IMG/VR virus record: IMGVR_UViG_3300014820_000010
Coordinates: 1 to 26,831 of that record
Origin: a virus
Direction: 5' to 3' (one strand)
DNA: 26,831 nucleotides
Part shown: one piece after another, positions 2,550 to 25,741 of the stretch
How positions within the stretch are numbered: the stretch's first letter is position 1
How the letters are laid out: every line of letters starts with the position of its first letter
Position numbers and translations under genes: made by a program
Notes under the pieces: model-generated
Databases searched by the model: none
What the model was told of the DNA's origin: nothing
Seen by the model: only the letters and a program-made list of their open reading frames with translations

Positions 2550-2597
2550 ATGTTTGAGAAAATTAAGAAAGCTGTCAACAACCTATCACTGAAGTGA
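2550..2597 (+). pseudogene. Start of a short ORF interrupted by the IscB element
   Basis: An AATAATATAAA box (2529-2539), a GGAGAG ribosome-binding site and ATG 2550 start a frame reading MFEKIKKAV before running into the left end of the IscB element, where it stops at 2595. Joining position 2577 to 4186 removes the insertion and gives an 18-codon frame ending in ITEKEILK and a TAA at 4212-4214 that overlaps the next AATAATATAAAAT box. The same stop/box overlap is seen after the gene ending at 16299. The reconstruction is inference; the original gene may have been longer if the insertion came with a deletion. Confidence 0.5.
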
Positions 2598-2812
2598 CGG
2601 ACTTATAGTAGAAATATTCTAAGTTTGATATTGACTAGATTGAGTCTTAACTGACTACGTTATATATCTCACGAGAATTTTGTATAATACCCTAGTACAT
2701 TTTATTCTCAAGGCTCTGTAAACAATCCTGTTAGGTAGGGATAGTCAACCTTATACAATTGAAGGATATATAACATTATCGAAGGGTTACAAACTCCAAG
2801 GAGGTACGGAAC
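2577..2812 (+). ncRNA. Candidate omega-RNA of IscB
   Basis: IscB nucleases use a structured RNA encoded directly upstream of their gene, with the guide taken from DNA just outside the left end. This interval is untranslated and contains several short hairpins. One is CTCC/GGAG around 2796-2805, which would sequester the AAGGAGG ribosome-binding site of iscB. By analogy the guide would be the roughly 16 bases ending near 2577, inside the interrupted ORF. No covariance check was possible. Confidence 0.6.
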
Positions 2813-4159
2813 ATGCGTGTATTCGTAAAAAATTTAAGAAATCAATCATTAATGCCTTGTACACAAAGAAAGGCAAGATTATTACTAAAAGAAAGTAAAG
2901 CTAAAATAATTAATTATTCACCTTTTATTATTCAATTATTAATTGCTACTGGTGAAACTGTTCAAGATGTTAAAATGGGAGTAGATTCTGGGGCTAAATT
3001 TATAGGTATCGCTATTGTTAGTAATAACAAAGTTTTAATAAAAGGAACTATAGAGTTAAGAAGCGATATTAAAGAATTATTGGAAAATAGAAAGATTTTA
3101 AGACGTTCAAGACGTAATAGAAAAACTAGATATAGAAGATGTAAGTTTAAATCTAAAACAAATAGAAAATGGAATGAAAAGAAACAAAAATACGTAAAAT
3201 ATAAAATAAGTTTTACTTCATCAAGGGACAAAGGGTGGCTTCCACCTTCTGTTCAATCGAGAATTGATAATGAAATAAATTGGATTAATAAATTTAAATC
3301 ATTATTGCCTAATCCAAAAGTTATAATTGAAGTAGGAAAGTTCGATGCTCATAAAATGATTAATCCTGAAATTGAAGGAGTTGAATATCAAAAGGGTGAT
3401 TTATATGACTATGAAAATATAAAAGCATATTTAATAGCTAGAGAAAATAATAGATGTCAAATATGCAAGAAAGAATATGATGGCAATGGGTGGCATACTC
3501 ATCATATAAAACAAAGAAAAGATGGCGGAAGTAATAGAGCTGAGAATTTGGCATTAGTTCATAGTAATTGTCATGAAAACTATCATTTGGGCAAGTTACC
3601 TAATTTTAAATTTAAGAAATCAAAAGGATATAAAGAAACTACTTTTATGAATATATTAAGACAACAAATATTTCAAAAACTTGACTGCAAAATAACTTAT
3701 GGAAATATTACTAAAGTTGATAGACAAAATTTAAAATTAGAGAAAACACATTATAATGATGCAATAGCTGTAAGTGAAACTAATAAAATAAAGGAAAATG
3801 ATAATACTTTGTTTTATATAAAACAATTCAGAAAAAAGAAAAGAAGCCTACATGAATCAATAGCTAGGAAAGGAAAGTCAATAAAAGGTATAAAAAATCC
3901 TAATATAACAGCTAAAAGAAATAATAAAAATACCAAATATAGTAATGGATTTTATCTAAATGATAAGGTTAATATATTTGGAGAAAAAGGATGGATAAGT
4001 GGGTTCTGTAGTGGTGCGTGTTATGTAAAAGATATAGACAATAAGTATATAACAATACCTAATAAATCGTATAAACAGGTAGGATTTAAACATTTAGAAC
4101 TTATACATCATAATAACAATTGGCAATATAGTAATATAGGCGATTCATCTCACGACTGA
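2813..4159 (+). CDS. IscB RNA-guided RuvC/HNH endonuclease
   Basis: Ancestor-type relative of Cas9. The N-terminal PLMP-like domain reads SLMPCTQRKARLLLKESKAK (12-31). RuvC-I is MGVDSGAKFIGIAIV with Asp58, and the arginine-rich bridge helix spans about 92-112. RuvC-II is VIIEVGKFD with Glu173. The HNH domain spans about 215-258 with zinc knuckle CQIC (215-218), the HHI motif (His230/231) and closing CHENYH. RuvC-III has HYNDAIAV with Asp316. The C-terminus (about 385-440, GFYLNDKVNIF onward) matches the TAM-interacting region. All catalytic residues are present, so the protein looks active. The gene ends SSHD followed by a TGA inside the right-end hairpin. 448 aa is normal for the family. Confidence 0.93.
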   Translation: MRVFVKNLRNQSLMPCTQRKARLLLKESKAKIINYSPFIIQLLIATGETVQDVKMGVDSGAKFIGIAIVSNNKVLIKGTIELRSDIKELLENRKILRRSRRNRKTRYRRCKFKSKTNRKWNEKKQKYVKYKISFTSSRDKGWLPPSVQSRIDNEINWINKFKSLLPNPKVIIEVGKFDAHKMINPEIEGVEYQKGDLYDYENIKAYLIARENNRCQICKKEYDGNGWHTHHIKQRKDGGSNRAENLALVHSNCHENYHLGKLPNFKFKKSKGYKETTFMNILRQQIFQKLDCKITYGNITKVDRQNLKLEKTHYNDAIAVSETNKIKENDNTLFYIKQFRKKKRSLHESIARKGKSIKGIKNPNITAKRNNKNTKYSNGFYLNDKVNIFGEKGWISGFCSGACYVKDIDNKYITIPNKSYKQVGFKHLELIHHNNNWQYSNIGDSSHD

Positions 4160-4227
4160 AGTCACGAGAGTTCTCGCCTTCTCTTAAATAACTGAAAAAG
4201 AAATATTAAAATAATATAAAATAAACA

Positions 4228-4256
4228 TTGACAAATCATGTAAAGTGTGGTAAAAT
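4228..4256 (+). promoter_or_regulatory. Sigma-A promoter of the polymerase-containing block
   Basis: TTGACA 4228-4233, 17-base spacer, TAAAAT 4251-4256. It lies just after the IscB element and an AATAATATAAAAT box (4210-4222), and is the only strong host-type promoter seen before the genes at 4352-11532, so it may drive the RNA polymerase gene early. Confidence 0.8.
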
Positions 4257-4263
4257 AGTATTA

Positions 4264-7801: not shown

Positions 7802-10651
7802 ATGGTAAATCGTCAATTATTTACAATGAAATTTAAGTCCACGAGACTAAAAAAATATAAATACGATATAACTATTGATTATCAAGAAGCTTTAGATAAT
7901 AATGAAATAATAGCTTTAGCAGATTCTCAAATACTTAGAACTATAAGAGATGTTATTGCAGATAAAGTAGGTGACTCCAGTAGAGTATTAGATAGAGAAC
8001 TATTAGAAGAGTTTTACCATGAAATTAATGTGATAAGGAGAAAGAAAAGAGATAATTCCGAAGACACTTTAAATAATGTTATGAAAATGAAAGAAATAAA
8101 AGAGAAAATAACTAATATGTGCTTTGTGCCTGAATACATAACTATAGTAATAGAGGATATAAGTCATTATGATTATTTACATGATAATGGATTAATATTA
8201 AATGGAGTGCCTTACTATAGGCTCTCAGTATCAGCAGGACAAGGAAGAGTTTCTACTGTAGTATTCTGTTCAAGTGATATATTAGAAGCTGTGAACAATA
8301 TATTAGATAACGGAAGAGATAAGACCAAAGTATTTTCACCTTCTAAATTCAATGCATATAAAGGTACATATAGTTCAGCAACTAAGCCAGTAACAACACC
8401 TAGATTTTGTGTAGTACCTGATTTTGAATCACCTACTACATTTGATGTTAATTGGGTTACAGAGACAGAAGGAGAGCAGGATGACAAGATTGAAAGGAGA
8501 ACAATAACAAAGAATTTCAACAGATGGGACGGTATGGGAATAATATCACCAAAATTTGCAAAGCAATGGGCAGATGATTTAGATTTAGATTATGTTCCTG
8601 CTGAATTTTGTACACGTCAAAGTTTTCTAAAAGGAATGTTTTGTGTATTTGATTTTCATGAATTTTGTGAGGTTAAGAATAATGGAAATTATAAAACTAA
8701 ATCTGTATTTAAAGATAAAGAAGGCAATGATATAGAAATTGATTTAAGAGATTATGATATGATTGTTACAGAAGGACAGTTTAAACTTTGGAATTCATTT
8801 AATAGTCTAGAGCAATATAAAACCAATTGTGAAACTAATAAGTTAAAATGGGGAGTAGCACTTTGTACAGATAAAGAATTAAAAAACAATCTAAAATACA
8901 ATTATCAATTTTTGCAATCACTAAATATAAAATCAAGCGATGTACCTGAGTTATGTGAAGAATTTATTAATTGGATACAAGGAGTAAATACAGATGACGT
9001 ATGGTATTCATTATTATTCTTAATGGGAGTAAATGTAACAGAAACCTCATTAAAAAATTATTTAAGGGATAGTAAGAACTATTGGGTTAAAAGTTTGATT
9101 ATAAATCATGATTTAATAAATGATAAATACATAAAACAAAAGATATATAATCTAATAAAAGTTAAAATAGATAAAGGGTGTATGGGGAGTATTACACTTA
9201 CGGGTAACAATCAAACACTAGTGTCAGACCCTTATGCAATGATGGAGTATGTGTGTGGCATGGAGGTAAAGGGATTATTAGCACCTAATAAATACTACGC
9301 TAACTATTGGAATAAAAGAGGAGTCAAGGAGATACTAGGAACAAGACCACCATTAACTTATAGGTCAGAATGCTTAAAAATGGAATTAGATAATACTGAA
9401 GAACAAAGATATTGGTATAAACATATGTATGGTGGAATAATAGTAAATATTCATGGTCATGAAACTGATAATTGGGCTGGGAGCGATTTTGATTATGACT
9501 TTTTGTCATCAACTTCCAATAGTGTTATTGTAAATTCAACTTATGAAAATGAATTGCCTATAGTATATGAAGCACCTAAACCAAAGAAAATAATATTTAC
9601 GGAAAATGATTTATTCAATGCAGATAAATTTACATTTGGTTCTATAATAGGGGCTATAACTAATAAGAGTACAACAGGACATGCAATGTTAACTAACCTT
9701 GAGAATATATATGGAATAGAAAGCAGAGAGTATTCGACTGTATTAGACCGTATAAAGATGTGTACTAAATTGCAATCAGCACAAATTGATAAGGCTAAGA
9801 TAGGTAAGGAAGTAAAAGGAATACCTAAAACATGGACAGATAGAAGATATATAGAGAGTTTAGAAATGACTAAAGAAGAAAAAGACTTCTTAAAATCAAT
9901 TATGATGGATAGACATCCATATTTCTTTATACACTTATATCCTGATACAAAAAGAAAATATAAAAAACACATTGAAGGATACAATATATCATGTGAACAT
10001 AAATTTGGAATGAATATTGAGGAATTAATATTAGAAATTAAAGATATTGGAGATAGTGCTGAAACTAAGGAAGAAAAAGAACAATTAAAATATATGAAGG
10101 ATTATCTAGAAGCGTATTACGAGTATATGCCTGTGGTTTATACAGAAAGCGTTATGAATTCTATATGTAGGTACATTGAGAGTGTTGATTTTAAAATTAG
10201 AGAAAAAGTAAGTACTAAATCGATAGATACACATTCAGTACTTATGAGAAATGAAAATATAAAGGATGAAGAATTATATCAAGAGGTGTTAACAGAATTT
10301 AAAGTATTAAAAAGGGAACTAAAGAATAGCAACAACGTAAAGAGTTCAAGTAGAAAACAAAAATACGATGAGACATTATCACAAGAAATTAGTGGAATCT
10401 ATAAGAAATTTCAAGAAGCAATGGATGAAAAGTGTCCTAATACATATGAGCTAGTAGATTATTTAATCAAAATATTTTATATTGAATTCCCAAGTTCAAA
10501 TAAAGATTTATTGTGGAATACATATGGTAAGTTTATATTTAAGAATTTGAAAGATAAGAATCAAAATGCAGTATTATTCCCTTTCCCAAATAAAGAGGGA
10601 GACATAGATTATCTTAATCAAAAATTCTTACTCAAGGAGGTAGAGATTTAA
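7802..10651 (+). CDS. Single-subunit RNA polymerase of the QDE-1/YonO superfamily
   Basis: A 949-aa protein with the signature blocks, in order, of the two-barrel polymerases (eukaryotic RdRP/QDE-1, SPbeta YonO, crAss-like phage gp66). These are LSVSAGQGR (141-149, the S-S-Q-R block), DGMGIISPKFA (243-253, the DGxGxxS block), FCTRQSFLKGMFCVFDF (269-285, the Q/R...KG block of the first barrel) and TRPPL (514-518). Last is the catalytic loop AGSDFDYDF (559-567), whose Asp562, Asp564 and Asp566 would hold the catalytic magnesium. Residues 1-120 and 620-949 are extensions without recognised domains. In phages such enzymes act as DNA-dependent RNA polymerases; RNA-templated synthesis cannot be excluded from sequence. 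GGGGGG stands before ATG 7802. The stop overlaps the next gene's ATG (TAATG), indicating translational coupling. Confidence 0.83.
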   Translation: MVNRQLFTMKFKSTRLKKYKYDITIDYQEALDNNEIIALADSQILRTIRDVIADKVGDSSRVLDRELLEEFYHEINVIRRKKRDNSEDTLNNVMKMKEIKEKITNMCFVPEYITIVIEDISHYDYLHDNGLILNGVPYYRLSVSAGQGRVSTVVFCSSDILEAVNNILDNGRDKTKVFSPSKFNAYKGTYSSATKPVTTPRFCVVPDFESPTTFDVNWVTETEGEQDDKIERRTITKNFNRWDGMGIISPKFAKQWADDLDLDYVPAEFCTRQSFLKGMFCVFDFHEFCEVKNNGNYKTKSVFKDKEGNDIEIDLRDYDMIVTEGQFKLWNSFNSLEQYKTNCETNKLKWGVALCTDKELKNNLKYNYQFLQSLNIKSSDVPELCEEFINWIQGVNTDDVWYSLLFLMGVNVTETSLKNYLRDSKNYWVKSLIINHDLINDKYIKQKIYNLIKVKIDKGCMGSITLTGNNQTLVSDPYAMMEYVCGMEVKGLLAPNKYYANYWNKRGVKEILGTRPPLTYRSECLKMELDNTEEQRYWYKHMYGGIIVNIHGHETDNWAGSDFDYDFLSSTSNSVIVNSTYENELPIVYEAPKPKKIIFTENDLFNADKFTFGSIIGAITNKSTTGHAMLTNLENIYGIESREYSTVLDRIKMCTKLQSAQIDKAKIGKEVKGIPKTWTDRRYIESLEMTKEEKDFLKSIMMDRHPYFFIHLYPDTKRKYKKHIEGYNISCEHKFGMNIEELILEIKDIGDSAETKEEKEQLKYMKDYLEAYYEYMPVVYTESVMNSICRYIESVDFKIREKVSTKSIDTHSVLMRNENIKDEELYQEVLTEFKVLKRELKNSNNVKSSSRKQKYDETLSQEISGIYKKFQEAMDEKCPNTYELVDYLIKIFYIEFPSSNKDLLWNTYGKFIFKNLKDKNQNAVLFPFPNKEGDIDYLNQKFLLKEVEI

Positions 10652-11532
10652 TGAATTTTAAATATAATGAAAAACTATATGGTGAAACAATATGTAATAA
10701 TGGATTTCAAACAGAATACATAAACTCTGAATTGACTATATTGGTTAAATACTTAAAGGAGGTTAAGTCATTTAAGAGAAAGGAGACAGAGACTTTTTTA
10801 TATGAGTTTTGTGAAAAGTATATTGAAGGATTTAATAAGGTAAAATTCTTCAAAGTTATTGATAGAGCAATAGTAAATGGTAGAAAACGAAGTAACAAAT
10901 TAATAGTAATAGATAAAATACCAATATATAAAGAGGAAATAGAAGCAATAGACAATTTAAAAATTGAACATGAATATAAAAAGTTGTTATTAGCTTTCTT
11001 AATTAATAAAAAAATAAGTCTAACTATAAGAAAAATACATGATGAAAGCATAAATACAATGTCAGCTTATTTTGAGGGTAATAAAAAAAGATACACCGAT
11101 ATATTTAAAACTACTAATATAGTTGGAAAATATAAAGTAGAAGATATGATACATAAGTTAGTTGATAATAATATAATAGAATCAGTAATCAATGGAGGAA
11201 TAGTACTAGAATTTCTTTATCCTATATATGATTTAGAAATAGAGTCTTATCAATCTAAAAATTATAAAACTGGTAAAATGGAAGATAAAAAAAAGAAAAT
11301 TATAAATTATAACGTAGATGATTATGAATTGTATGAAGAAATTAGTGATTTTGATAACATAGGATATGTATTTGATTATTATAAAGGCGAAAATGGAATT
11401 AAGAAATGTGAATGTTGTGGGAAATATATTAAACAAAAGAGCAAAAAACCTCCAAAATATTGTGAAATATGTGCTAAGGAAATAAATAGAATCAAGACAT
11501 TAGAGAACAAAAAGAGAAAAAGTTTGATTTAA
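10651..11532 (+). CDS. Zinc-ribbon protein coupled to the RNA polymerase (293 aa)
   Basis: The helical N-terminal 240 residues are unrecognised. The C-terminus carries a four-cysteine ribbon, CECCGKYIKQ and YCEIC, in roughly residues 252-277, followed by a basic tail. The ATG overlaps the polymerase stop by one base, and AAGGAGG is ten bases upstream inside the polymerase gene. Tight coupling suggests a fixed stoichiometry, so an accessory factor (promoter recognition, elongation or template binding) for the polymerase is the simplest guess. This is inference from context only. It is the last gene of the block; a 12-bp hairpin follows at 11650. Confidence 0.75.
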   Translation: MNFKYNEKLYGETICNNGFQTEYINSELTILVKYLKEVKSFKRKETETFLYEFCEKYIEGFNKVKFFKVIDRAIVNGRKRSNKLIVIDKIPIYKEEIEAIDNLKIEHEYKKLLLAFLINKKISLTIRKIHDESINTMSAYFEGNKKRYTDIFKTTNIVGKYKVEDMIHKLVDNNIIESVINGGIVLEFLYPIYDLEIESYQSKNYKTGKMEDKKKKIINYNVDDYELYEEISDFDNIGYVFDYYKGENGIKKCECCGKYIKQKSKKPPKYCEICAKEINRIKTLENKKRKSLI

Positions 11533-11649
11533 TAATTAAATAGAAACACCCCTTAAACACAGTCACACCAACGGTTACAGAGGTTTTATGATGTTACTGT
11601 AAAATTTTCGGTATAAGGTAGGAAATAGTAATATAAAATTACCATTTTT

Positions 11650-11679
11650 AAATGTGCTATAGTAAAGTATAGCACATTT
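11650..11679. terminator. Perfect 12-bp hairpin closing the polymerase block
   Basis: AAATGTGCTATA (11650-11661) and TATAGCACATTT (11668-11679) pair without mismatch around a 6-base loop. The T-tract after it is poor, so termination may be inefficient or the hairpin may be a processing or stability element. Between the stop at 11532 and here, TTACAG/CTGTAA (11575-11602) forms one more weak hairpin. Confidence 0.6.
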
Positions 11680-11689
11680 ATCATAAGGA

Positions 11690-12530
11690 ACAAAATAAAA
11701 AATTAATATTACATAACTATCACATAAAATAGTACGTCATCTATTATTACCATAACTCACGGTGCTTTATGGTAAGCTGAGCATAAGGGAAAAGCTTTCA
11801 AACCCGATGATAAAAATCCTAGAAATTAGCAAGTTTAGGACTAATATAATAATATAAAATATATAGAAAACTATTAGATGAGCAAATTTAAAAAAGGTTT
11901 AATTACCAACTTGAATTATCAAATAAATAATTATAATTCGTTATTTTTATTTATATTGGCTTTTCAAATGAGAAGCTTGGCTGATGAAACTTATAGGAGG
12001 GATAGAATTATAAGTTGAGGTCTTTAATTGGTTTAGTGCAATCCAATGATATCTTACTTGTATGTAGTGTAAACAAGGAAATATAAAAACACCCTATAAT
12101 ATTTAATTACCCAAAGATTCACGAGGATTAAGTATTATAGAATTTAATGTGTTTGAGGAATAGACACCTCGTAAAATGAGTGAATAGGGTATGAAATCCC
12201 AACAAAGAAGAATTATTAAGCCGAAGGGCATAGGAAATTAAAACTATTAATAGTTAGCAAGTAGTAAATCTTAAATGGTTATCGACTTTGAGAGTTAATC
12301 TTGAAGTCTATGTAAAAAGGACGCTTCTCCATTTAAGTAATTATAATTTATAACAAATATGCAATTCACGAGTGGGATTGTGGTAATTTAAAATCTAGAT
12401 ATTTAAAATCGGTGACTCTCAGCCATGTAAATGAGAAACATTAAAGTGTGGTTTCACAATGTACCACAAATAAAACATTGTTGATTCAAATATGGTTTCC
12501 TACTTACCAACAAAATAAATAGTAGGATTA
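11690..12530 (+). ncRNA. Candidate giant structured RNA upstream of tRNA (GOLLD/ROOL-like in size and setting)
   Basis: About 840 bases without a credible ORF but dense in helices. Local hairpins: 11749-11773, 11959-11976 (7 bp, AAAT loop), 11988-12016 (8 bp perfect), 12027-12047, 12057-12077 and 12498-12527 (7 bp perfect). Longer-range helices: 12094-12107/12127-12140 (14 bp, one G-U) and CTTAAATGG 12270-12278/CCATTTAAG 12329-12337. Pseudoknots are possible at TCCTA 11817-11821/TAGGA 11836-11840 with ATTAG 11825-11829/CTAAT 11841-11845. Others involve ACGAGG 12121-12126/CCTCGT 12167-12172, and ACATT 12438-12442/AATGT 12458-12462 interlocked with TGTGGT 12447-12452/ACCACA 12463-12468. GOLLD and ROOL RNAs are of similar length, lie next to tRNAs in phages and are rich in such pairings. 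Identity with either was not shown; 5' and 3' ends are estimates. Confidence 0.6.
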
Positions 12531-12534
12531 ATAT

Positions 12535-12611
12535 GCTCCCTTGGCGTAAATGGATAACGCATCCGACTTGTAATCGGAAGATTTTCAGATCATACCTGAA
12601 AGGGAGCTCCA
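12535..12611 (+). tRNA. tRNA-Thr (anticodon UGU), CCA encoded
   Basis: Full cloverleaf: acceptor GCTCCCT/AGGGAGC, D-arm GCGT/ACGC with GG in the loop, anticodon arm TCCGA/TCGGA with loop CTTGTAA (anticodon TGT), 5-base variable region, T-arm TTCAG/CTGAA, discriminator T and genome-encoded CCA. Total 77 nt. The T-loop reads ATCATAC instead of the usual TTCRANY, so it lacks the normal positions 54 and 58. ACA is a frequent Thr codon in this element, so the tRNA could support its own translation. Confidence 0.9.
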
Positions 12612-12658: not shown

Positions 12659-12681
12659 GGGATAAGCTTCTCACTTATCCC
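12659..12681 (+). terminator. 8-bp hairpin after the tRNA
   Basis: GGGATAAG (12659-12666) and CTTATCCC (12674-12681) pair perfectly around CTTCTCA and are followed by AT-rich sequence without a clean T-run. It probably ends or trims the giant RNA/tRNA transcript. A smaller GCC/GGC hairpin at 12620-12636 lies between tRNA and this stem. Confidence 0.55.
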
Positions 12682-12808: not shown

Positions 12809-13231
12809 ATGAATGAAAACACTGAAATTTTAGAAAGAAATATGAAGAATTTAATTGGGAAGGTTGTAGAATTAAGAGAATTTAAAACGGATTATAGTAA
12901 GAAGGTAGAGGATGTTATATCAGATATTGATTTTAGACCTTATAGACGTTTGTTATATACATATCTTAATTTAGCCGATGCATTCTTTAATGTAACATTT
13001 AATAAAAAAGATACTAATCGTGAGAAAGTATTAGGAGAAGTTATTGTTAATATAAACACTGAAATTAGTAGGTTAGATATATTATCTATTGTGCTAATTG
13101 ACCATTTAAGTGATGGAGAAGTTGTTAATGGTGAAACTTTGCATTCTAGTGTATATAGATGTTTTCAAGATATATTAGTTAAATTAATAAATTATGGTGA
13201 AAAATTAAATAGAATTAAAGAACTACAATAA
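12809..13231 (+). CDS. Hypothetical helical protein (140 aa)
   Basis: Unrecognised, almost entirely helical by composition and without cysteines except one near the C-terminus. AAGGAG is seven bases before ATG 12809. First of three consecutive genes (12809, 13310, 14367) that share a two-hairpin leader and so are presumably controlled together with the HU gene. The stop TAA at 13229-13231 overlaps the next AATAATATAAAT box (13227-13238). Confidence 0.75.
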   Translation: MNENTEILERNMKNLIGKVVELREFKTDYSKKVEDVISDIDFRPYRRLLYTYLNLADAFFNVTFNKKDTNREKVLGEVIVNINTEISRLDILSIVLIDHLSDGEVVNGETLHSSVYRCFQDILVKLINYGEKLNRIKELQ

Positions 13232-13309: not shown

Positions 13310-14248
13310 ATGAACTACATAGAATCGCAAGCTAAAAGAAGTAAAGCAATATTAGGTTTAATCAAGAAATTAGCAAAAAATGAAATTGAAGATAATATAA
13401 ATTCAACAAAATCAAGACAAGATATTTTGGAAGAGGATATTAATGATTTAATGGGTAGGATTAAAAAAGAGAAAGCATTAAAAGAAAATATGTTGACATT
13501 AATTGGTAGTAGTGCATTTGTTGCTATGGGAAGAGCCGTAAATGAAAAAAAAGAAGATAAAAATTATTCTAACTACAGAAAATTAATTGATTTATTATCT
13601 AAATTATATAATACATATAATCAATTAAGCAAAGAAGATAATTTACAATTTCTGAATTCATTAGTTAATGGATTGCAAGAAGAAACTAAGAGTGTTCATG
13701 ATTTAATGAGAGATTCATTGAAATCAGAAAGAGATAACCAATACAGATGTTTAAGTGATGCTTATATAAAATTAATTAATTTAATTGATAATATTAAAAA
13801 GAATAGACCCACATTGAGGACTGTAAAAGAAGTAGTTGAAGAATCTCATGAGGAAACAATTGCTTATCAATTAGATGATTCATTATGTAGTCAAATAGTT
13901 TTAAATGAAGAAGATATTAATAATTCTTTACATGACTATATAGAGAGAAGAATGATTCAAAAATATAATAGATTTTATGATTATCGTGTTAAGAATGATA
14001 AGCCTGATATGGATAAATACACTGAGTTCAAAACAAATGCAAGTGTAACAATCCCATATAAAATTTTAGCTAAAAATAAGTTAAATAGTGTTGATTTTTA
14101 TCTAGAAGAATTATATGAAAATATGCAGGATGATTATGCATTCTTAACAAACGTAAATAAAGTTTATATTAATTTCAATCCATCATATGAATGTATTGAG
14201 GTTATTGTAACATATAAAACATTAGTTAAGAATAGTCAATTAAATTAG
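13310..14248 (+). CDS. Hypothetical protein (312 aa), coiled-coil-rich
   Basis: Unrecognised. Residues 1-60 and 95-160 look like long amphipathic helices rich in lysine and glutamate, typical of coiled coils (for example SRQDILEEDINDLMGRIKKE). The last 100 residues are more globular (KTNASVTIPYKILAKNK, VYINFNPSYECIEVIVTYKT). A structural or scaffold role is possible but unproved. AAAGGAG precedes ATG 13310. Middle gene of the trio with common leaders. Confidence 0.75.
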   Translation: MNYIESQAKRSKAILGLIKKLAKNEIEDNINSTKSRQDILEEDINDLMGRIKKEKALKENMLTLIGSSAFVAMGRAVNEKKEDKNYSNYRKLIDLLSKLYNTYNQLSKEDNLQFLNSLVNGLQEETKSVHDLMRDSLKSERDNQYRCLSDAYIKLINLIDNIKKNRPTLRTVKEVVEESHEETIAYQLDDSLCSQIVLNEEDINNSLHDYIERRMIQKYNRFYDYRVKNDKPDMDKYTEFKTNASVTIPYKILAKNKLNSVDFYLEELYENMQDDYAFLTNVNKVYINFNPSYECIEVIVTYKTLVKNSQLN

Positions 14249-14259
14249 CGTTAAATAAG

Positions 14260-14366
14260 GATTTTAGCTTTGAGAAGAGCTTTAAATAGAATAAAATAAT
14301 GTGTTCACTACAAAAGTGTGAAAATATTAGGCAATATGCCAATATATCAAAAGGAGAAATATTATT
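14260..14366 (+). promoter_or_regulatory. Two-hairpin leader, copy 3 (HU gene)
   Basis: Hairpin ATTT-T-AGCT/AGCT-TT-AAAT (14261-14287) keeps the flanking words ATTTTAG and CTTTAAATA of copies 1 and 2, but the inner stem has changed from AGTC/GACT to AGCT/AGCT, a compensatory change. It is followed by CACT/AGTG (14306-14318) and by ATATT-GGC/GCC-AATAT (14324-14345), five bases before AAAAGGAG. No perfect AATAATATAAA box here, only a related AATAAAATAAT. Confidence 0.6.
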
Positions 14367-14642
14367 ATGAATAAGCAAGAATTGGTAACAACAATCGCAG
14401 AAAAAAGTGGATTAACTAAAAAGGATAGTCAATTAGCATTAGAGGCTTTCGTTGAAACTATAGAACAAACAGTAGCTACAGAATCAGTAGTTATAACTGG
14501 ATTTGGTAAATTTGAAACAATAGATGTTGCTGAGAAATCTGGAGTATGTAAATTACAAGGAACTGAAAAACCATGGACAACTGAAGCATATAAGAAACCC
14601 GTATTTAGAGCAGGAAAAAATCTTAAAGAAATTTGCAAATAA
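14367..14642 (+). CDS. HU-family DNA-binding protein
   Basis: The 91-aa protein begins MNKQELVTTIAEKSGLTKKD, a typical HU start, has the GFGKFE turn at about 50-55 and ends FRAGKNLKEI as expected. The DNA-embracing arm (about 58-76) is diverged, with KSGVCKLQGTEKPWTTEAYKK in place of the usual GRNPxTG...IPA pattern, so DNA bending may differ from host HU. Bends and compacts DNA; phage copies can aid replication or late transcription. Controlled by a two-hairpin leader shared with the two preceding genes. Confidence 0.9.
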   Translation: MNKQELVTTIAEKSGLTKKDSQLALEAFVETIEQTVATESVVITGFGKFETIDVAEKSGVCKLQGTEKPWTTEAYKKPVFRAGKNLKEICK

Positions 14643-14672
14643 AATAATATAAATATAGGAGTGCGTTTATAT

Positions 14673-14846
14673 ATGGAAGATATAGAATTATTCCCTTGTT
14701 ACAGTGTTCCACTAATGAAATTCTTAACACTTAAAAAGAATATAAGATATAAATTAGTGGGATTACATCCTGAGACTAAGAATACTTTTTGGGTATTTAT
14801 TAGAACAGAAAAATTAAATAATGCTTTATCAGAATGGGGTAAATAA
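14673..14846 (+). CDS. Small protein, DUF5659-like (57 aa)
   Basis: The sequence MEDIELFPCYSVPLMKFL... with VGLHPETKNTFWVFIRTEKL resembles the small DUF5659 fold (strand-turn-strand plus helix) common in phages. A similar small protein lies at 24019. ATG 14673 is chosen because AGGAG (14657-14661) is 11 bases upstream. An AATAATATAAAT box (14643-14654) separates it from HU. Its stop codon lies inside the loop of an intrinsic terminator. Function unknown. Confidence 0.65.
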   Translation: MEDIELFPCYSVPLMKFLTLKKNIRYKLVGLHPETKNTFWVFIRTEKLNNALSEWGK

Positions 14847-14861
14847 TCTCCATTCTTTTTT
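14831..14861 (+). terminator. Intrinsic terminator overlapping a stop codon
   Basis: AGAATGGGG (14831-14839) pairs with CTCCATTCT (14848-14856), nine pairs with one G-U, followed by a T-run. It ends the unit containing HU and the DUF5659-like gene, just before the zinc-finger/Vsr-like nuclease gene. Confidence 0.8.
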
Positions 14862-14898
14862 ATTTTAAAAATATATAATTTTAAGGAGTGTGTTATAA

Positions 14899-16299
14899 AT
14901 GTTAATAACAGAAACGGTAACGACAAAAATAAACAATACAAATTTAGATTGGTATGTATCTAAAGGATATCCATTTTCTAAAGAAACATATGGTTGCAAA
15001 GTTGACATTAAAGTACAAGATTTACCTCATAAGAGTGGTGTTAATGTTGATGTTGAATGTGATAATTGTGAAAAAGAACTTAAAAATATACCTTGGAAAA
15101 ATTATAATAAGTATTTACATGAAGATGGAAAATATTATTGTAGATTATGTAGTATGAAATTATTCGCAACTAAAAAAATGAAGAAAACACAATTTGATAA
15201 AAGTGAAAATTTTCATCAATGGTGCGTTTATAATTTATCCAAAGAAAAATCAAATGAAATATTATCTCGTTGGGATTATAAATTAAATTATCCTTATACT
15301 CCAAAGACAGTTACGCGTGGTTCTAATGGATTTGATTATAAAGGGTATTGGTTTAAATGTTTGGAACATCCTGAACATGATAGTGAATTAAAGAATATAA
15401 AAAGTTTTACGAATGGTCACAAAGAGAGTTTTAATTGTAAACAATGTAATTCTATAGGTCAATATTTAATTGATTTATATGGTGAAAATGCTTTGGAAAT
15501 GTACTGGGATTATCAAAAGAATACATTAAATCCGTGGACAACTGATAAGTGTGGTACTAAACGTATTTTTATAATATGTCAAAATAAAGATTATCATAAT
15601 AGCTATTCAGTAACGTGTGCATCATTTAGTAGTATGAATTCACGATGTCCATTATGTTGTAATTTTAATGGTAAAGTACATCCAATAGATTCATTGGGAC
15701 AATATATCACAGACACTTTTGGGAAACAATTTTTAAATTCTATTTGGAGTGATAAAAACAATAAATCACCATTTAAATATACTCCTTTTTCTAAAAGTAA
15801 AATATGGTGGAATTGTACTAATAATAAACACGAAGATTACAAGAGAAGTATATGTGATTCAAATACTTCTGATTTTAGATGCCCAAGTTGTGTGAGGGAA
15901 CGAAATGAATCCTTTCTGCAAGAAAAAGTTAGATTATATTTAGAATCATTAGGTTATGAAATATTACACGAACATAATTGCACAATAGTGCCTATAAATC
16001 CTAAAACTAATCATCCACTGCCTTTTGATAATGAAATTGTAGAATTGAGACTTTTGTGTGAAGTACATGGCGGACAACATTATTATATTAGTACGTGGCA
16101 TCAGAAACTAGCTAAGAAAAATAATACAACACCTGAATACGAATTACATATGCAGAAAGTACGTGACAGATATAAGAAATTTATATCACATACAAAAGGT
16201 TATTATTATTTAGAAATACCATATACTTCAGACAATAAAAAAGAAAAATATAAAACTCTAATTGATAATAAAATTAGAGAACTTTTAATATTAAAATAA
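14899..16299 (+). CDS. Zinc-finger/Vsr-like nuclease (probable free-standing homing endonuclease)
   Basis: 466 aa. Several CxxC knuckles form a chain of treble-clef-like units: CDNC (54-57) with CRLC (81-84), FKCLEHPEH (152-160) with CKQC (180-183), and further pairs near 227-253 and 306-331. The last 130 residues form a Vsr-like PD-(D/E)XK domain starting at NESFLQEKVRLYLESLGY, with LPFDNEIVE (374-382) and EVHGGQHYY (388-396) as the active-site region and later Asp423/Arg424. Such proteins are typical mobile endonucleases of large phages. AAGGAG lies ten bases before ATG 14899. It stands alone after a terminator and is followed by two AATAATATAAA boxes. Nuclease call good; homing role inferred. 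Confidence 0.75.
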   Translation: MLITETVTTKINNTNLDWYVSKGYPFSKETYGCKVDIKVQDLPHKSGVNVDVECDNCEKELKNIPWKNYNKYLHEDGKYYCRLCSMKLFATKKMKKTQFDKSENFHQWCVYNLSKEKSNEILSRWDYKLNYPYTPKTVTRGSNGFDYKGYWFKCLEHPEHDSELKNIKSFTNGHKESFNCKQCNSIGQYLIDLYGENALEMYWDYQKNTLNPWTTDKCGTKRIFIICQNKDYHNSYSVTCASFSSMNSRCPLCCNFNGKVHPIDSLGQYITDTFGKQFLNSIWSDKNNKSPFKYTPFSKSKIWWNCTNNKHEDYKRSICDSNTSDFRCPSCVRERNESFLQEKVRLYLESLGYEILHEHNCTIVPINPKTNHPLPFDNEIVELRLLCEVHGGQHYYISTWHQKLAKKNNTTPEYELHMQKVRDRYKKFISHTKGYYYLEIPYTSDNKKEKYKTLIDNKIRELLILK

Positions 16300-16927: not shown

Positions 16928-18415
16928 TGCAAATTTACTATAGAAATTTAAACGCTAATTGTGATGGAGACGGTGTTACAGGTTCATGTGCTGAATTAAC
17001 TGTGATAAGAGAAAATTATCCCAATTACAGATGTTTAGTTGATTTTGGTATGGTTCAAAATTCAAAAATGAAATCAGAACAATTACATAAAATAAATGGT
17101 AGAGAATTACCTTTGGGAGGTGATTTTGGGAATGGAATATCTATATCAGACGTATGGATTAGCCATTCCCACTGAGTATGCCGACCACGTAGGTTTGCTT
17201 GCCCGAATCCCCCTTATACCAGAATTAGACAAAGCTCATATTAGAATGACAGAATTGAGTGCAAAAATAGCAACTATTATTTTACAAGATACTTGCCATC
17301 TATTAACTAAAGATTTATTAAAGTCTGTTAAAAATAACAAAAACCCTAAAAATCAAATAGTACCGTATTTAACACAGAAAAGTACAGATGAAGTTATTGA
17401 AAGAATACAATCTTATTCATTTGACCAAGAAATTAAACCTTGTGATGGAATTGTGTGCAAATTCATTTCAAATGGACACTTGAGTGGTTCTGCAAGTATA
17501 TTATTTGAAATTAAAGATAATGAATATGAAAAACAGACTGTTCTGTTTAGTGGAGATACATCAGGTACTAAACCTATAATTTTTACGAAGCCTTTGGAAA
17601 TTAAGGGTATGAAGATAAATCACATAATTTCAGAAGCTACTTATAATGACAAATTAATAGAAAAAGATAATTTTGAATTAGAATTTACAAAATATATTCA
17701 AGAAACTTGTATTGAAAAAAGAGGTTCAATTATTGTGCCATTATTTTCGGTGGGAAGGTCTACTAATTCTCTTATTAAATTAAGACATGTATTTAAGCAA
17801 CACCCTGAGTTTAATAATATAAAAATATACTTAGCTAGTCCTATGGCAGTCAAAAGTCACAGATTATTATGTAGTGAAACAAATTTAGAATTTTATTCTG
17901 AGGAATGGCACAAAGAAATAGATATATTTGATTGGACTCAAGTAGAATATGTAGAAAGTTTTAAAGGTGTTCTTAAAATGCTAAAAAATCCTGAACCAAA
18001 AATTATCACAGCAAGTGCAGGTATGGTTAAGGCTTACAGTGAGTACATTATAGGACAATTAATATCCTCTCGTAAAAATAGAGTAGTGTTTGTAGGCTAC
18101 CAAGGAGAGGGGACTCAAGGCAGACTTATACTAGAGGGAATACAAAAATCAATGACTGTAGAGGACGAAGAAGGACATAGAAAGAGAGTTGGAATTAACG
18201 CTAAGATTTCTAATACGGGAGGACAATCAGGACATGAAGATTATAGAGGACTAATTAAGTTATGGTCAAGTGTTGAAAAGAAGAAACTCAAAACTATATT
18301 ATTAAATCATGGAAATCCTGATGGAATGTTTTTCTTTAAAAAGGAACTAGAAAAAGCTCTGCCCCATGTTGATGTAAAAATAACTAAATATAATGAGATT
18401 GTAAGACTTTATTAA
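16927..18415 (+). pseudogene. Beta-CASP metallo-beta-lactamase RNase, frame broken in the metal motif
   Basis: Two frames together encode one protein of the CPSF-73/RNase J-like family, which cleaves or trims RNA. Frame 1 (16927-17175) covers the start (TGSCAEL, CLVDFGMVQ) up to VWISHSH and then meets TGA at 17173. Frame +1 resumes with ADHVGLL and runs to 18415, with FSGDTSG, PLFSVGRS, SPMAVK, TASAGM, GYQGEGTQGR and the C-terminal LNHGNPDG. The metal motif HxHxDH is thus split. Removing seven bases (17173-17179) restores HSHADHVG exactly; a simple +1 shift would give HSHEYADH with two extra residues. All other motifs are intact, which argues for a recent lesion, a sequencing error or translational bypass. 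Bases 17161-17220 are 33/60 G+C, far above the surroundings. Confidence 0.75.
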
Positions 18416-18454: not shown

Positions 18455-18670
18455 ATGAAAAAAGTAATTAATTCAATCGAATTTAACACAAAGGGTGAAT
18501 TAGTGGGACTAGAAGAAAATGTAATCACAACTCAGGTAACTAAAAAGGATGAAGTTATTGAGGATACTATTGATTTAAACGAATTGTTAGAAGAAATACA
18601 AAAGTTTTGTAATGATAACGCTGGTAAAAATGTAGAAGGCAAATTCTTAATGAGAGTTACTGAAGAATAG
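18455..18670 (+). CDS. Hypothetical acidic protein (71 aa)
   Basis: Unrecognised; MKKVINSIEFNTKGELVGLEENV start, then charged helix (IDLNELLEEIQKFCND). GAAGGAG precedes ATG 18455, with an AATAATATAAAAT box (18422-18434) between it and the beta-CASP gene. Expression is plausible; function unknown. Confidence 0.65.
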   Translation: MKKVINSIEFNTKGELVGLEENVITTQVTKKDEVIEDTIDLNELLEEIQKFCNDNAGKNVEGKFLMRVTEE

Positions 18671-19096: not shown

Positions 19097-20320
19097 ATGA
19101 GTGATATGTTAAATAGAAAAGAGAATGAGACTTTAATTAGTTACTTTAAAAGAATAACATTGAATAAAAAAGAGATGGATTTGGATTATTGTGAATGGGG
19201 AGAACTTATTTTAGGAGAAAAAGTGTATAGCTCAGAGAATTTAAGAAAAAGTTTTTATACATTAGAGAAAATGTTTAAAAGACTAGATGATGAACAATTA
19301 AATGAATTAGAAAATAATAAAAGTGAAAGTAATTTATTCGATGAGCTTAAAGAAGCTATCGGAGATTTAGATATAAAAAAAATGGAAGTACGTTCAAAGA
19401 CAAATAGACTTAATAAGATTAAAAGGGATTTTGTAAAATCAATAGAAATAAGTAATGATTTAAAAGAAACAATACATAATGAAATTGGGAATTTTCCACA
19501 ATTTGATTTTAAACCTATAATTTCTGAATCAGAAAACAAATTGATAGTTACTGTTTCAGATTTTCACATAGGATATGTTATAAAAGATTATAAAGGAAAT
19601 TCATATAATTTTGAAATAGCCAAGAAGAGATTAAGTGTATATATTTGTGAAATTAAAAAAGTATGTGAATTATATAATGTAACAGATATTGTCGTAGTAA
19701 ATCTTGGTGATTCAGTGGAGAATACGGGCATGAGAGTCAACCAAGCTTTCGAGGTAGAGTATGATTTGTCACATCAAATAGTAAAAGCTACTCAATTATT
19801 ATATAGTTTCATTACAGACATATCTGTATTTGCTAATGTTGAATTCTATTCTGTTGGAGGCAATCATAATCGCATGGCTGGAATGAAAGATGCTAATTTA
19901 GAGGGAGATAATTCGAACGTTATTATTGTAGAAATGATTAAAGACTTTGTAGAAATATCCAAGAATAACAGAATAACAATAGGTTACACGGATTACAAAG
20001 ATGATTCATGTGTATTTGATGTTAATGGATTTAAATGTAAAGCAATTCACGGAGACAACAGGGTAAGTGGTGCTAAGAAATTATTTGATGGAGAATCAAC
20101 TATGGATAAAGAAGATTATAATTTGATTTTAAGAGGTCATTTTCATAACTTTAATGTGCAATCACAGAACGATGGATATGTAATTACGAGTGGATGTTTA
20201 TTTGGTTATAACCCTTACAGTGTCAAGAAGATGTCTTGTTCAACTAATGCAAGTCAGGCTATGGTCTTAATTAGTGATAAGGTTGAATTTATTAAAGATG
20301 TTAACTTACAAATAATATAA
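19097..20320 (+). CDS. Calcineurin-like metallophosphoesterase
   Basis: 407 aa. Residues 1-140 are a helical, charged extension. The phosphoesterase domain follows with all metal motifs: SDFHIG (154-159, Asp155/His157), LGDSVEN (203-209), GGNHNR (254-259), AIHGD (316-320) and RGHFHN (346-351). Similar phage proteins are annotated as putative DNA exonuclease/SbcD-like phosphatases; the substrate here is not evident. GGAGAG precedes ATG 19097. A box (20311-20323) overlaps the end of the gene. Confidence 0.85.
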   Translation: MSDMLNRKENETLISYFKRITLNKKEMDLDYCEWGELILGEKVYSSENLRKSFYTLEKMFKRLDDEQLNELENNKSESNLFDELKEAIGDLDIKKMEVRSKTNRLNKIKRDFVKSIEISNDLKETIHNEIGNFPQFDFKPIISESENKLIVTVSDFHIGYVIKDYKGNSYNFEIAKKRLSVYICEIKKVCELYNVTDIVVVNLGDSVENTGMRVNQAFEVEYDLSHQIVKATQLLYSFITDISVFANVEFYSVGGNHNRMAGMKDANLEGDNSNVIIVEMIKDFVEISKNNRITIGYTDYKDDSCVFDVNGFKCKAIHGDNRVSGAKKLFDGESTMDKEDYNLILRGHFHNFNVQSQNDGYVITSGCLFGYNPYSVKKMSCSTNASQAMVLISDKVEFIKDVNLQII

Positions 20321-20754: not shown

Positions 20755-21771
20755 ATGGCAAAAAGAGAAGTAATATGTGGAATTTATAAGATTGAAAATT
20801 TAGTCAACGGGAAGGTATATATTGGTCAAAGCATAAATATTTATAAAAGATGGAGTGAACATAAAAGGAATTTGAATAATGTTAATACCAAACATTCAAA
20901 TGATTACCTCCAAAAATCTTGGGATAAGTATGGTCGTGATAATTTTACTTTTGAAATAATTGAAAAATGTAGTGTAGCGAATATAGACGAGAAAGAAATT
21001 CTATATATACAACAATACAAATCTCATATCAGAACGTTTGGATACAATATTGAATTAGGAGGATGTTATACTAAAATAATGTCGGAAGAGACTAAAAGAA
21101 AAATATCAATTGCTAATAAAAATCCATCAAAAGAAACTAGATTGAAAATTAGTATTGGTAATACTGGGAAAAGACATGGAGAAACAAGAGGAACATACTC
21201 AATAGATGATATTAAATTAATATGTAGATTATTACAAAGTAGATTGTCGCCAAGTACAATAAATAAAGAGTATGGATATAGTAGAATAACAGTAAGTGAT
21301 ATAAAAAACAAGAAGACTTGGAAATATATATCTTATGATTATAATTTTGAAAATATAGATAGTTATAGTAGTATTGAACGAGAAGTTGTTCAATATGATT
21401 TATCATTCAACAAAATTTCAGAATACAGAAGTATAAAAGAGGCAAGTAATAAAACAAATACATGTGCGTGTTCTATAGATAAGAGTTGTAATAATAAACA
21501 AAAAATGGCTAATGAATTTATATGGTTTTATAAATGTGAAGATACAGAGGAAAATATATTAGTTAAAAAAGCTTTTGTAGAGAAAGATAATCATACTACA
21601 GAACATTTTAACAAGGCAATTATACAAATTGATAAAGATGGTAGTGAAATAAGGGAATGGGTTAGTGCGGCTGTTGCAGGCAGAGAATTAAATATTGACA
21701 ATAGTTCAATAGCTAAGAATTGCAAAGGAAAGCTTAAACAAGTAAAAGGATTTTATTTTAAATATGCTTAA
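20755..21771 (+). CDS. GIY-YIG homing endonuclease with NUMOD repeats
   Basis: 338 aa. N-terminal GIY-YIG domain: GIYKIENLVNGKVYIGQS (9-26) with catalytic Arg32 region, ending FGYNIELGG near residue 100. Then NUMOD3-type motifs (SEETKRKISIAN, SKETRLKISIGN), a helix-turn-helix (SPSTINKEYGYSRITVSDIK) and two NUMOD1-like units (VVQYDLSFNKISEYRSIKEAS and AIIQIDKDGSEIREWVSAA). This is the layout of I-TevI-like free-standing homing enzymes. GAGGAG precedes ATG 20755. It stands alone between a terminator and an AATAATATAAAT box (21772-21783). Confidence 0.9.
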   Translation: MAKREVICGIYKIENLVNGKVYIGQSINIYKRWSEHKRNLNNVNTKHSNDYLQKSWDKYGRDNFTFEIIEKCSVANIDEKEILYIQQYKSHIRTFGYNIELGGCYTKIMSEETKRKISIANKNPSKETRLKISIGNTGKRHGETRGTYSIDDIKLICRLLQSRLSPSTINKEYGYSRITVSDIKNKKTWKYISYDYNFENIDSYSSIEREVVQYDLSFNKISEYRSIKEASNKTNTCACSIDKSCNNKQKMANEFIWFYKCEDTEENILVKKAFVEKDNHTTEHFNKAIIQIDKDGSEIREWVSAAVAGRELNIDNSSIAKNCKGKLKQVKGFYFKYA

Positions 21772-24192: not shown

Positions 24193-24247
24193 TATAAAAT
24201 AACTTTTAAATCAAATAAATCAAAGTCATATCAAAGGAGTGTGTTTT

Positions 24248-25741
24248 ATGAGTAAGAAAATTAAATATGAAAAAATTAAAAATTATATAGAGGGTACTGA
24301 AGGTAATGGATGTAAAATAGTTACTACGAATAAAGAATTTGAGGAAGAAATAATATCTCAAAATAAAAATAATACAACTGTAAAAATTAAGATTATATGT
24401 GGGATATGTAAAAAAGAATATGAAACAAATTATGAGAATTTTAAAAGGAAAAATAAAAGACAATGCAATGAATGTGGTAAGAAGATATCCATAGAAAATA
24501 AAAAGATTAGTTATGAACATGTACAAGAATTTATTAAAAATAATAATTGTGAGTTATTAACAGAAAAAGAAGATTATATAGATACAAGACATAATATCAA
24601 TATAAAATGTTCTTGTGGGGAAAGTTTTATAGCTACATTTGACAATTTTCATTATAAAAACAAAAGGCAATGCAACAAATGCGGTAGGAAATTAATAATT
24701 AAAAAAAGAGAAATGAGAGAAGATTACAGTAAGAAAACTAAAACTACTGAAATCTTTAAACAAGAAGTTTTAGATAAAGTAGGTAATGAATATACTGTTT
24801 TAGGTAAATATATAAATAATCATACTAAAATATTGATAAAGCATAACTGTAACGACTGTAATAACTACGAATTTTCAAAATCCCCTTCTAACTTTTTACG
24901 AGGAGAAATATGTCCAATATGTTCTGAAAAGAAACGTGCTACTGATAGGACGAAAACAAATGAAGAATTTATAAAAGAAGTTTATAAATTAGTTGGGGAT
25001 GAGTATACAGTATTAGGTGAATACACTAAATCTGATATAAAGATAAAATTTAGACATAATAATATAAAATGCAATAACAATGAATTTGAGATGAAACCTG
25101 CTAATTTTTTGCAAGGCAACAGGTGTCCTGAGTGTAATAGATTGCAACAAATAATACGGTTGGAAATTTTAAGACCATTATGTTTAGCAAAATCATGGGA
25201 AAGTACTAGATTATCTCAAAGCTTTGTTTTTAATAAATTTAAAGAGGCAGGATACTATGTTTTAGAATGTCAAACATATAAAAATTCTTCAACAAAAATA
25301 AAATATATTTGTCCAAAACACAAAGATATAATACAGGAAATGAGTTATGATAATTTTAGAAATGGGTGCAGATGTAGATATTGCAATCAAAGCAAAGGTG
25401 AAAGAAATATAAGAGAATATTTAACACATAAAGAAATATGTTTTGAAAATCAATATTCATATGAAAATTTGAGAGGAGTTAATAACGGACTACTAAGATT
25501 TGATTTCGTTATATTTAAAAATAAAGAAAAATCAGAAATAGAATTTCTTTTGGAATATGATGGCTCACAACACTTTTATGCATCTGATTTCTTTGGTGGA
25601 GAAGAAAATCTGAACATTACCCAATTTCATGATGAATTGAAAAATAAATATTGTTTTGAAAATAATATATTATTGCACAGAATACATTATAAAAATTTTA
25701 AGAATTTAGAAAATATTTTAGATGATATGTTTATAAGTTAG
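24248..25741 (+). CDS. Repeat zinc-finger/Vsr-like nuclease (second homing-type enzyme)
   Basis: 497 aa from ATG 24248 (AAGGAG eight bases upstream). At least four zinc modules of about 60-75 residues; two are obvious repeats, VGNEYTVLGKY...FLRGEICPIC and VGDEYTVLGEY...FLQGNRCPEC. Two shorter ones near the start both end KRQCN(E/K)CG. The C-terminal nuclease domain begins GERNIREYL (about 384), with LRFDFVIF (416-423), LEYDGSQHFY (435-444) and LKNKYCFENNILLHRIHY, the pattern of Vsr-like phage endonucleases. Distant from the 14899 protein, so an independent arrival is likely. Confidence 0.75.
   Translation: MSKKIKYEKIKNYIEGTEGNGCKIVTTNKEFEEEIISQNKNNTTVKIKIICGICKKEYETNYENFKRKNKRQCNECGKKISIENKKISYEHVQEFIKNNNCELLTEKEDYIDTRHNINIKCSCGESFIATFDNFHYKNKRQCNKCGRKLIIKKREMREDYSKKTKTTEIFKQEVLDKVGNEYTVLGKYINNHTKILIKHNCNDCNNYEFSKSPSNFLRGEICPICSEKKRATDRTKTNEEFIKEVYKLVGDEYTVLGEYTKSDIKIKFRHNNIKCNNNEFEMKPANFLQGNRCPECNRLQQIIRLEILRPLCLAKSWESTRLSQSFVFNKFKEAGYYVLECQTYKNSSTKIKYICPKHKDIIQEMSYDNFRNGCRCRYCNQSKGERNIREYLTHKEICFENQYSYENLRGVNNGLLRFDFVIFKNKEKSEIEFLLEYDGSQHFYASDFFGGEENLNITQFHDELKNKYCFENNILLHRIHYKNFKNLENILDDMFIS

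Follow-up and report, generated by a model that had tools for sequence, protein, structure and literature searches.

Does the long gap in front of a phage tRNA gene encode a single giant RNA, and if so, of what kind? The window analysed here, a 26.8-kb IMG/VR virus fragment from a low-GC phage, raises this question because a sequence-only reading of it proposed a large ornate RNA at this place, either a divergent GOLLD or ROOL RNA or a new class. To our knowledge, only a small number of large ornate RNAs exist, and what they do is unexplained mainly because few of them have tractable hosts. The analysis below ties a large ornate RNA to a specific polymerase lineage, and it points to a strongly covarying, unstudied 1.3-kb RNA with which, from its mapped start onwards, the late transcript of SPbeta begins in the tractable B. 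subtilis 168.

The phage and its non-coding interval

The window carries on its + strand a gene for a 949-aa single-chain DNA-dependent RNA polymerase of the YonO type (7802–10651), which was recognized by Pfam (RdRP PF05183, 1.6e-6), PHROGs (phrog_8308, 3e-151) and tblastn. Since the tblastn matches lie in Bacillus phage BUCT082, a Spbetavirus (47.5%), and in SPbeta yonO (~24.5%), the fragment is, as judged from this gene, a member of the SPbeta-like, YonO-polymerase phages. The following gene, P3 (10651–11532, + strand, 293 aa, function unassigned), is also next after the polymerase in most relatives according to tblastn. A tRNA-Thr(UGU) gene is found further downstream at 12535–12611 (+ strand; ARAGORN, and 56 bits in Rfam), followed by two genes without known function and by the gene of an HU-like protein, the YonN counterpart (14367–14642, + strand; Pfam). 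The far end of the interval is marked by a YonJ-like exonuclease (19097–20320, + strand; phrog_284, 4.6e-71) together with a YonK-like ORF at 18455–18670, which has no Pfam or PHROGs match and was assigned by eye alone. Inside the polymerase–YonJ interval, the window also encodes a beta-CASP metallo-hydrolase of the RNase J/CPSF-like RNase family (17096–18415), and this enzyme could be a processor of the RNA discussed here.

The non-coding stretch between P3 and tRNA-Thr spans 11533–12534, or about 1,000 nt. The RNA had originally been placed at 11690–12530; its end at the tRNA was correct, but the interval is longer than that and its structure begins near 11550. The claim that it is non-coding held up when small ORFs were considered: no plausible gene was found in 11533–12534, where the longest internal ORF on the gene strand encodes 46 aa and has no ribosome-binding site. 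The opposite strand has a 52-aa TTG ORF, which overlaps tRNA-Thr. The description of a large, ornate, phage-borne RNA region adjacent to a tRNA likewise fits a YonO-type polymerase phage with tRNA-Thr at 12535.

The abundance of helices, on which the proposal had leaned, is a weaker argument. The 845 nt that begin at 11690 and reach the tRNA do fold better than 20 of 20 dinucleotide shuffles, but only moderately so (z = -2.25). In a folding scan of the whole window, the positions 11601 (z = -4.2) and 12201 (z = -2.5) are the only prominent ones inside the interval, and several intergenic spots elsewhere in the window have scores equal to these peaks. With a moderate z and such competitors, the presence of helices would not by itself be proof of a giant RNA in DNA as AT-rich as this. 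Further short stretches with z ≤ -3.7, at 14701, 18701, 20601, 23901 and 26301, are probably terminators or more small RNAs.

The 5' module

A comparison was made possible by L002, a 141-kb contig that was returned by the polymerase search and whose polymerase is 90% identical to that of the window. The window bases 11550–11852 (+ strand) are conserved in this contig at 12886–13182. The RNAalifold structure of the pair has an energy of -42.7 kcal/mol and contains 68 pairs, of which 7 are doubly compensated and none is broken. Column shuffling (400 replicates) gave a mean energy of -25.5 ± 4.1 kcal/mol and on average 1.26 ± 1.1 double compensations, and no replicate reached the observed values. 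It is this covariation with L002, rather than folding energy, that shows 11550–11852 to be a selected, conserved and structured RNA. L002 provides the one homologue of the module, and a covariance model built from a part of it (R1) matches the window and L002 alone among 51 loci. Of the proposed single RNA of ~840 nt, which was to be checked by covariation among homologues, the 5' third with its 7 doubly compensated pairs is hence supported, but not the 3' two thirds, which are missing from L002 and have no full homologue.

All elements of the module lie on the + strand. A perfect 13-bp hairpin at 11649–11680 covaries with L002, and the segment 11602–11690 folds with a z of -4.1. A sub-domain at 11736–11811 is closed by the pairing of GUCAUC (11736–11741) with GAUGAU (11806–11811). 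It contains a hairpin (11747–11775) with two compensatory pairs and the invariant loop CUCACGGUGC, and an H-type pseudoknot (11779–11805), both stems of which covary when the alignment is read directly. Stem S1 (11779–11782/11794–11797) is GAGC/GCUU in the window and GAGG/CCUC in L002, and stem S2 (11787–11789/11803–11805) is GGG/CCC in the window and AGG/CCU in L002. At least three pseudoknots had been suggested for the region; this one was upheld, but the support extends to it alone. As a means of finding homologues, a pattern scan with the loop CUCACGGUGC was abandoned: only the match in L002's contig was real out of 8. The module is completed by a 3' hairpin at 11817–11840, which is followed by ACUAAUAU. 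What had been described as a box at 11848–11860 turned out to be AT-rich sequence spanning the point where the conservation with L002 stops.

The 3' module and the RNA islands of related phages

In L002, the 5' module is directly followed by another tRNA-Thr(UGU), different from that of the window. This makes 11853–12534 (+ strand) separable, and on this alignment the interval consists of two modules with the junction at 11852/11853. Short chance pieces aside, nothing of the 3' module occurs anywhere on the L002 contig. No full homologue was found in IMG/VR, phage or plasmid collections, and when phages and plasmids were searched with the RNA by distant BLAST, no match was significant. The folding energy of most of the module is unremarkable, with 12080–12350 reaching a z of -2.1. 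A tandem duplication of the 5' module within the 3' module, considered on the basis of collinear short repeats, was rejected as 69 of 200 shuffles were as good.

Two elements of the 3' module point to SPbeta-like phages. The best local alignments to the RNAs of SPbeta and four related loci (L064, L055, L080 and L054) all fall on one 45-nt core at 12167–12207, CCUCGUAAAAUGAGUGAAUAGGGUAUGAAAUCCCAACAAA, and 0 to 7 of 100 shuffles were as good. Overlapping with it is a CGAGG...CCUCG helix plus UAAAAUGAGUGAAUAGG (12122–12188, + strand), a core probably in common with the leader RNAs of the Bacillus SPbeta type. This site was the top match in the window, both strands included, of a covariance model (R2) built solely from Bacillus SPbeta-type RNAs, with an E of 0.0027 compared to 0.93 for the next match. 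The match covers ~34 nt of the 48-position model, and the motif was first spotted by eye. Over 757 kb of relatives the site still ranks first, but its E rises to 0.076, which is not significant, and for this reason we consider the homology of the 3' core to the ornate RNAs of SPbeta-like phages probable, not proven.

The hairpin GGGUAUGAAAUCCC-AACA (12187–12204, + strand) is also present in L080, L054, L137/L140 and L144. Pattern scans were of limited use. A scan with CCTCGTAAAATRAGTGA returned SPbeta-type phages plus chance coding matches, and looser scans gave mostly chance matches; GGGNNTGAAATCCCAACAA gave plausible matches in L080, L137/L140 and L144, 4 matches by chance and none in 398 Bacillota genomes; the sole plausible match of TTAAGCYGAAGGGCAYA was in L054. 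In L144, an SPbeta-like phage, an ornate non-coding stretch at 3800–4260 lies between integrase and endolysin and has the GGGUAUGAAAUCCCAACAAA hairpin, as does the window. The 3' module ends with a predicted terminal hairpin, CCUACU/AGUAGG plus AUUAAUAU (12499–12534, + strand; sequence and fold), whose last base is the base before the tRNA.

The strongest structural rival of an RNA that comprises both modules is that the 5' module alone (~300 nt) is functional, and that the 3' 680 nt, flanked by the similar ends AGGACTAATAT...AGGATTAATAT, serve as an AT-rich spacer or are the decayed remains of accessory DNA. The position of the L002 5' module directly before its tRNA, the unremarkable folding of most of 11853–12534 and the lack of a found homologue speak for it, whereas the 45-nt core common to relatives, the z-score of 12080–12350 and the terminal hairpin abutting the tRNA speak against it. 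On balance, we think that this explanation is unlikely, but it deserves to be taken seriously.

The setting of the interval bears on the same question. In our set of relatives (62 viral loci and 5 from genomes, each with a YonO-type polymerase), the order polymerase–P3–(HU)–...–YonK–YonJ recurs, and the polymerase–YonK interval contains long non-coding structured stretches, often with tRNAs (Thr, Trp, Tyr, Ser and others). The HU–YonK gap of the Bacillus members is 1.2–3.4 kb long and mosaic. In SPbeta it measures 1,684 nt and is 100% identical at 2225613–2227296 of the B. subtilis genome G433. When 18 non-redundant phages are aligned, the SPbeta-family core (bases 386–800) yields 96 consensus pairs, of which 19 are doubly compensated, with 98% of the cells paired; its energy is -78 kcal/mol compared to -29 ± 4 kcal/mol for shuffled alignments, which contain 2.6 ± 1.7 compensated pairs. 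The YonO late transcript of SPbeta has a mapped start and an "unannotated non-coding RNA" (Forrest et al. 2017, PMC5467207). Provided that G433 is identical to strain 168 or at least collinear, the published late start is base 386, exactly where the opening helix of the core, AAUAGUCAUUUA/UAAAUGGCUAUU, begins. The late transcript thus opens with a largely unannotated RNA of ~1.3 kb (L021 5154–6452, minus strand; NC_001884 complement 59153–60451).

The SPbeta leader resembles the window RNA in that it is a large non-coding RNA of the same kind of phage, located in the polymerase–YonK/YonJ interval. It covaries extensively, and its CGAGG/CCUCG + UAAAAURAGUGAA core is probably common with the window. 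However, the SPbeta RNA sits after HU and the window RNA before it, and the remainder of the 1.7-kb leader, which includes an Rfam DUF3800-VIII and a sub-threshold skipping-rope module, does not align with the window. Skipping-rope (RF02924) is found in the same island of L054 (66.5 bits) and L055 (45.3 bits) and weakly in SPbeta and plaBV1; it has no match in the window or L002. As skipping-rope and DUF3800-VIII, both annotated in phage Goe14, are embedded in the islands, the polymerase–YonK islands look like collections of exchangeable RNA modules.

Two further observations were made at these loci. In L002, a group I intron with a 257-aa ORF (RF00028, 43 bits, slightly under gathering) splits the polymerase gene at 9710–10838; yonO of Goe14 is also interrupted, around a 300-aa ORF, and L095–L099, L105 and L110 have lengthened polymerase matches. 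The YonO-type polymerase gene is therefore a recurrent insertion target. In L092, whose polymerase is 68% identical, a structured-looking non-coding stretch of ~430 nt is followed by at least 4 tRNA genes (13775–14990), past the YonJ-like gene.

Explanations of the interval

The explanation towards which we lean, with restrained confidence, is that the interval is an RNA island of modular build that evolves fast and is linked to polymerases of the YonO type, and that both modules belong to one RNA, which would be transcribed with the tRNA and trimmed there. Transcription would start just past the polymerase/P3 operon, at ~11620, and run through both modules and the tRNA, driven by the phage YonO-type polymerase or the host RNAP. 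RNase P matures the 5' ends of tRNAs, and its cut at 12534/12535 would free a discrete RNA of ~0.9 kb. The analogy with SPbeta suggests that this RNA may build up during the middle or late phase of infection, and the resemblance to the SPbeta leader and to GOLLD/ROOL suggests that it may be structural or scaffolding, not a message. Phages would exchange modules and tRNAs, and because of this exchange just short cores would stay recognizable. The covariation of the 5' module, the clean L002 boundary, the R2 core match, the 45 nt on which the best alignments to several relatives coincide, the synteny and the covarying RNA of SPbeta favour this explanation; the single 5' homologue, the missing full 3' homologue, the HU order and the weakness of R2 and of the promoter motif weaken it.

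The promoter motif in question is the AT-rich promoter-like element AATTTTCGGTATAAGGTAGGAAATAG (11602–11627, + strand) just 3' of P3. It is weak but positionally shared across relatives, and its information of 8.9, compared to 7.2 ± 0.5 for shuffled sequences, is only suggestive of a promoter. A de novo motif search for a polymerase promoter mainly returned the hairpin AACCCTTGATA..AAGGGTTT plus a weak TATATGRWAGA motif, which we did not take as proof of a promoter. In most loci (L021 and others), this hairpin and a TATATGRWAGA-like element directly follow P3, and they are possibly a terminator plus a phage-polymerase promoter.

The strongest functional rival is a cis-acting leader, that is, an attenuator, antiterminator or processing signal that controls the tRNA or the early/middle genes further on, as opposed to a free RNA. 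The interval sits right after the promoter-like element and ahead of a same-strand tRNA and genes, the SPbeta late transcript has its RNA as the 5' part, and hairpins go on past the tRNA: the one at 12659–12681 (+ strand), GGGAUAAG/CUUAUCCC, is GAGGUAAG/CUUACCUC in the L002 alignment, with two compensated pairs. A leader of 1 kb would nevertheless be large, the tRNA between the RNA and the next gene implies cleavage, and L002 and the window retain the RNA but have different genes downstream of it. We regard a leader as rather improbable.

It is very improbable that the 3' module is a mobile element, e.g. a group I intron beside the tRNA. Its presence and absence in close relatives and the intron in the L002 polymerase gene, a sign that such elements are active here, fit this idea, but the module is without an ORF and its end lies outside the tRNA, not in coding or anticodon sequence. 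The group I version is largely refuted, as no such intron was found in the window interval by a permissive search (E up to 10) that does detect the one in L002, at 43 bits and E 2e-9.

GOLLD forms a 14-mer RNA cage and ROOL an ordered nanocage. Like the window RNA, GOLLD (RF02032) is giant, phage-borne, near tRNAs and modular with a variable 5' part, and ROOL (RF03087) is large, phage-borne and near tRNA islands; the GOLLD-type context of phage location and tRNA adjacency is present in the window. Unlike either family, the window RNA matches neither covariance model. Rfam scans of the window at gathering and permissive thresholds returned no GOLLD, ROOL or OLE. A direct search with RF02032, a model of the conserved 3' region (gathering 150 bits), had no match in the window, and control genomes also gave no true GOLLD above the cut-off; RF03087 (gathering 99.1 bits) had no match either, and its positive control gave none. 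The sequence-only reading was thus right that neither consensus is recognizable, and membership in GOLLD, ROOL or OLE, for which a cmsearch was to be the check, found no model match. Least probable of all is therefore a divergent GOLLD or ROOL RNA, which size, phage context, tRNA adjacency and the variable 5' halves of GOLLD (PMC12286853) would suit but which the permissive scans and direct searches do not support. A weak similarity to Fusobacteriales-1 (RF02920) at 12406–12526 (29.6 bits, E 0.12; gathering 52.1) is matched by similar sub-threshold hits in control genomes, and an exact-pattern scan of IMG/VR with this segment gave 0 matches.

The window RNA would be kin to the large ornate phage RNAs near tRNAs; judged by model search, it is not a GOLLD, ROOL or OLE RNA or a group I intron. 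A new class, the other suggestion made at the outset, may be right, but an RNA island of YonO-type-polymerase phages is the better-supported frame. More speculatively, and with considerable doubt on our part, the YonO-type-polymerase phages could harbour giant, modular RNAs that are linked to tRNAs and make up a superclass of their own, new to science, with modules shuffled among phages whose Bacillota hosts are distant from one another. The RNA of the window would belong to it, and so would the first 1.3 kb of the late transcript of SPbeta; both would be made abundantly by the phage polymerase and form RNA-only structures like GOLLD/ROOL.

The window also contains 3 homing/HNH-type endonuclease genes in 27 kb (14899–16299, 20755–21771 and 24239–25741). 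At 2574–4159, a HEARO/omegaRNA (RF02033, 85.8 bits) is located immediately 5' of an IscB-like RRXRR + HNH protein (2813–4159).
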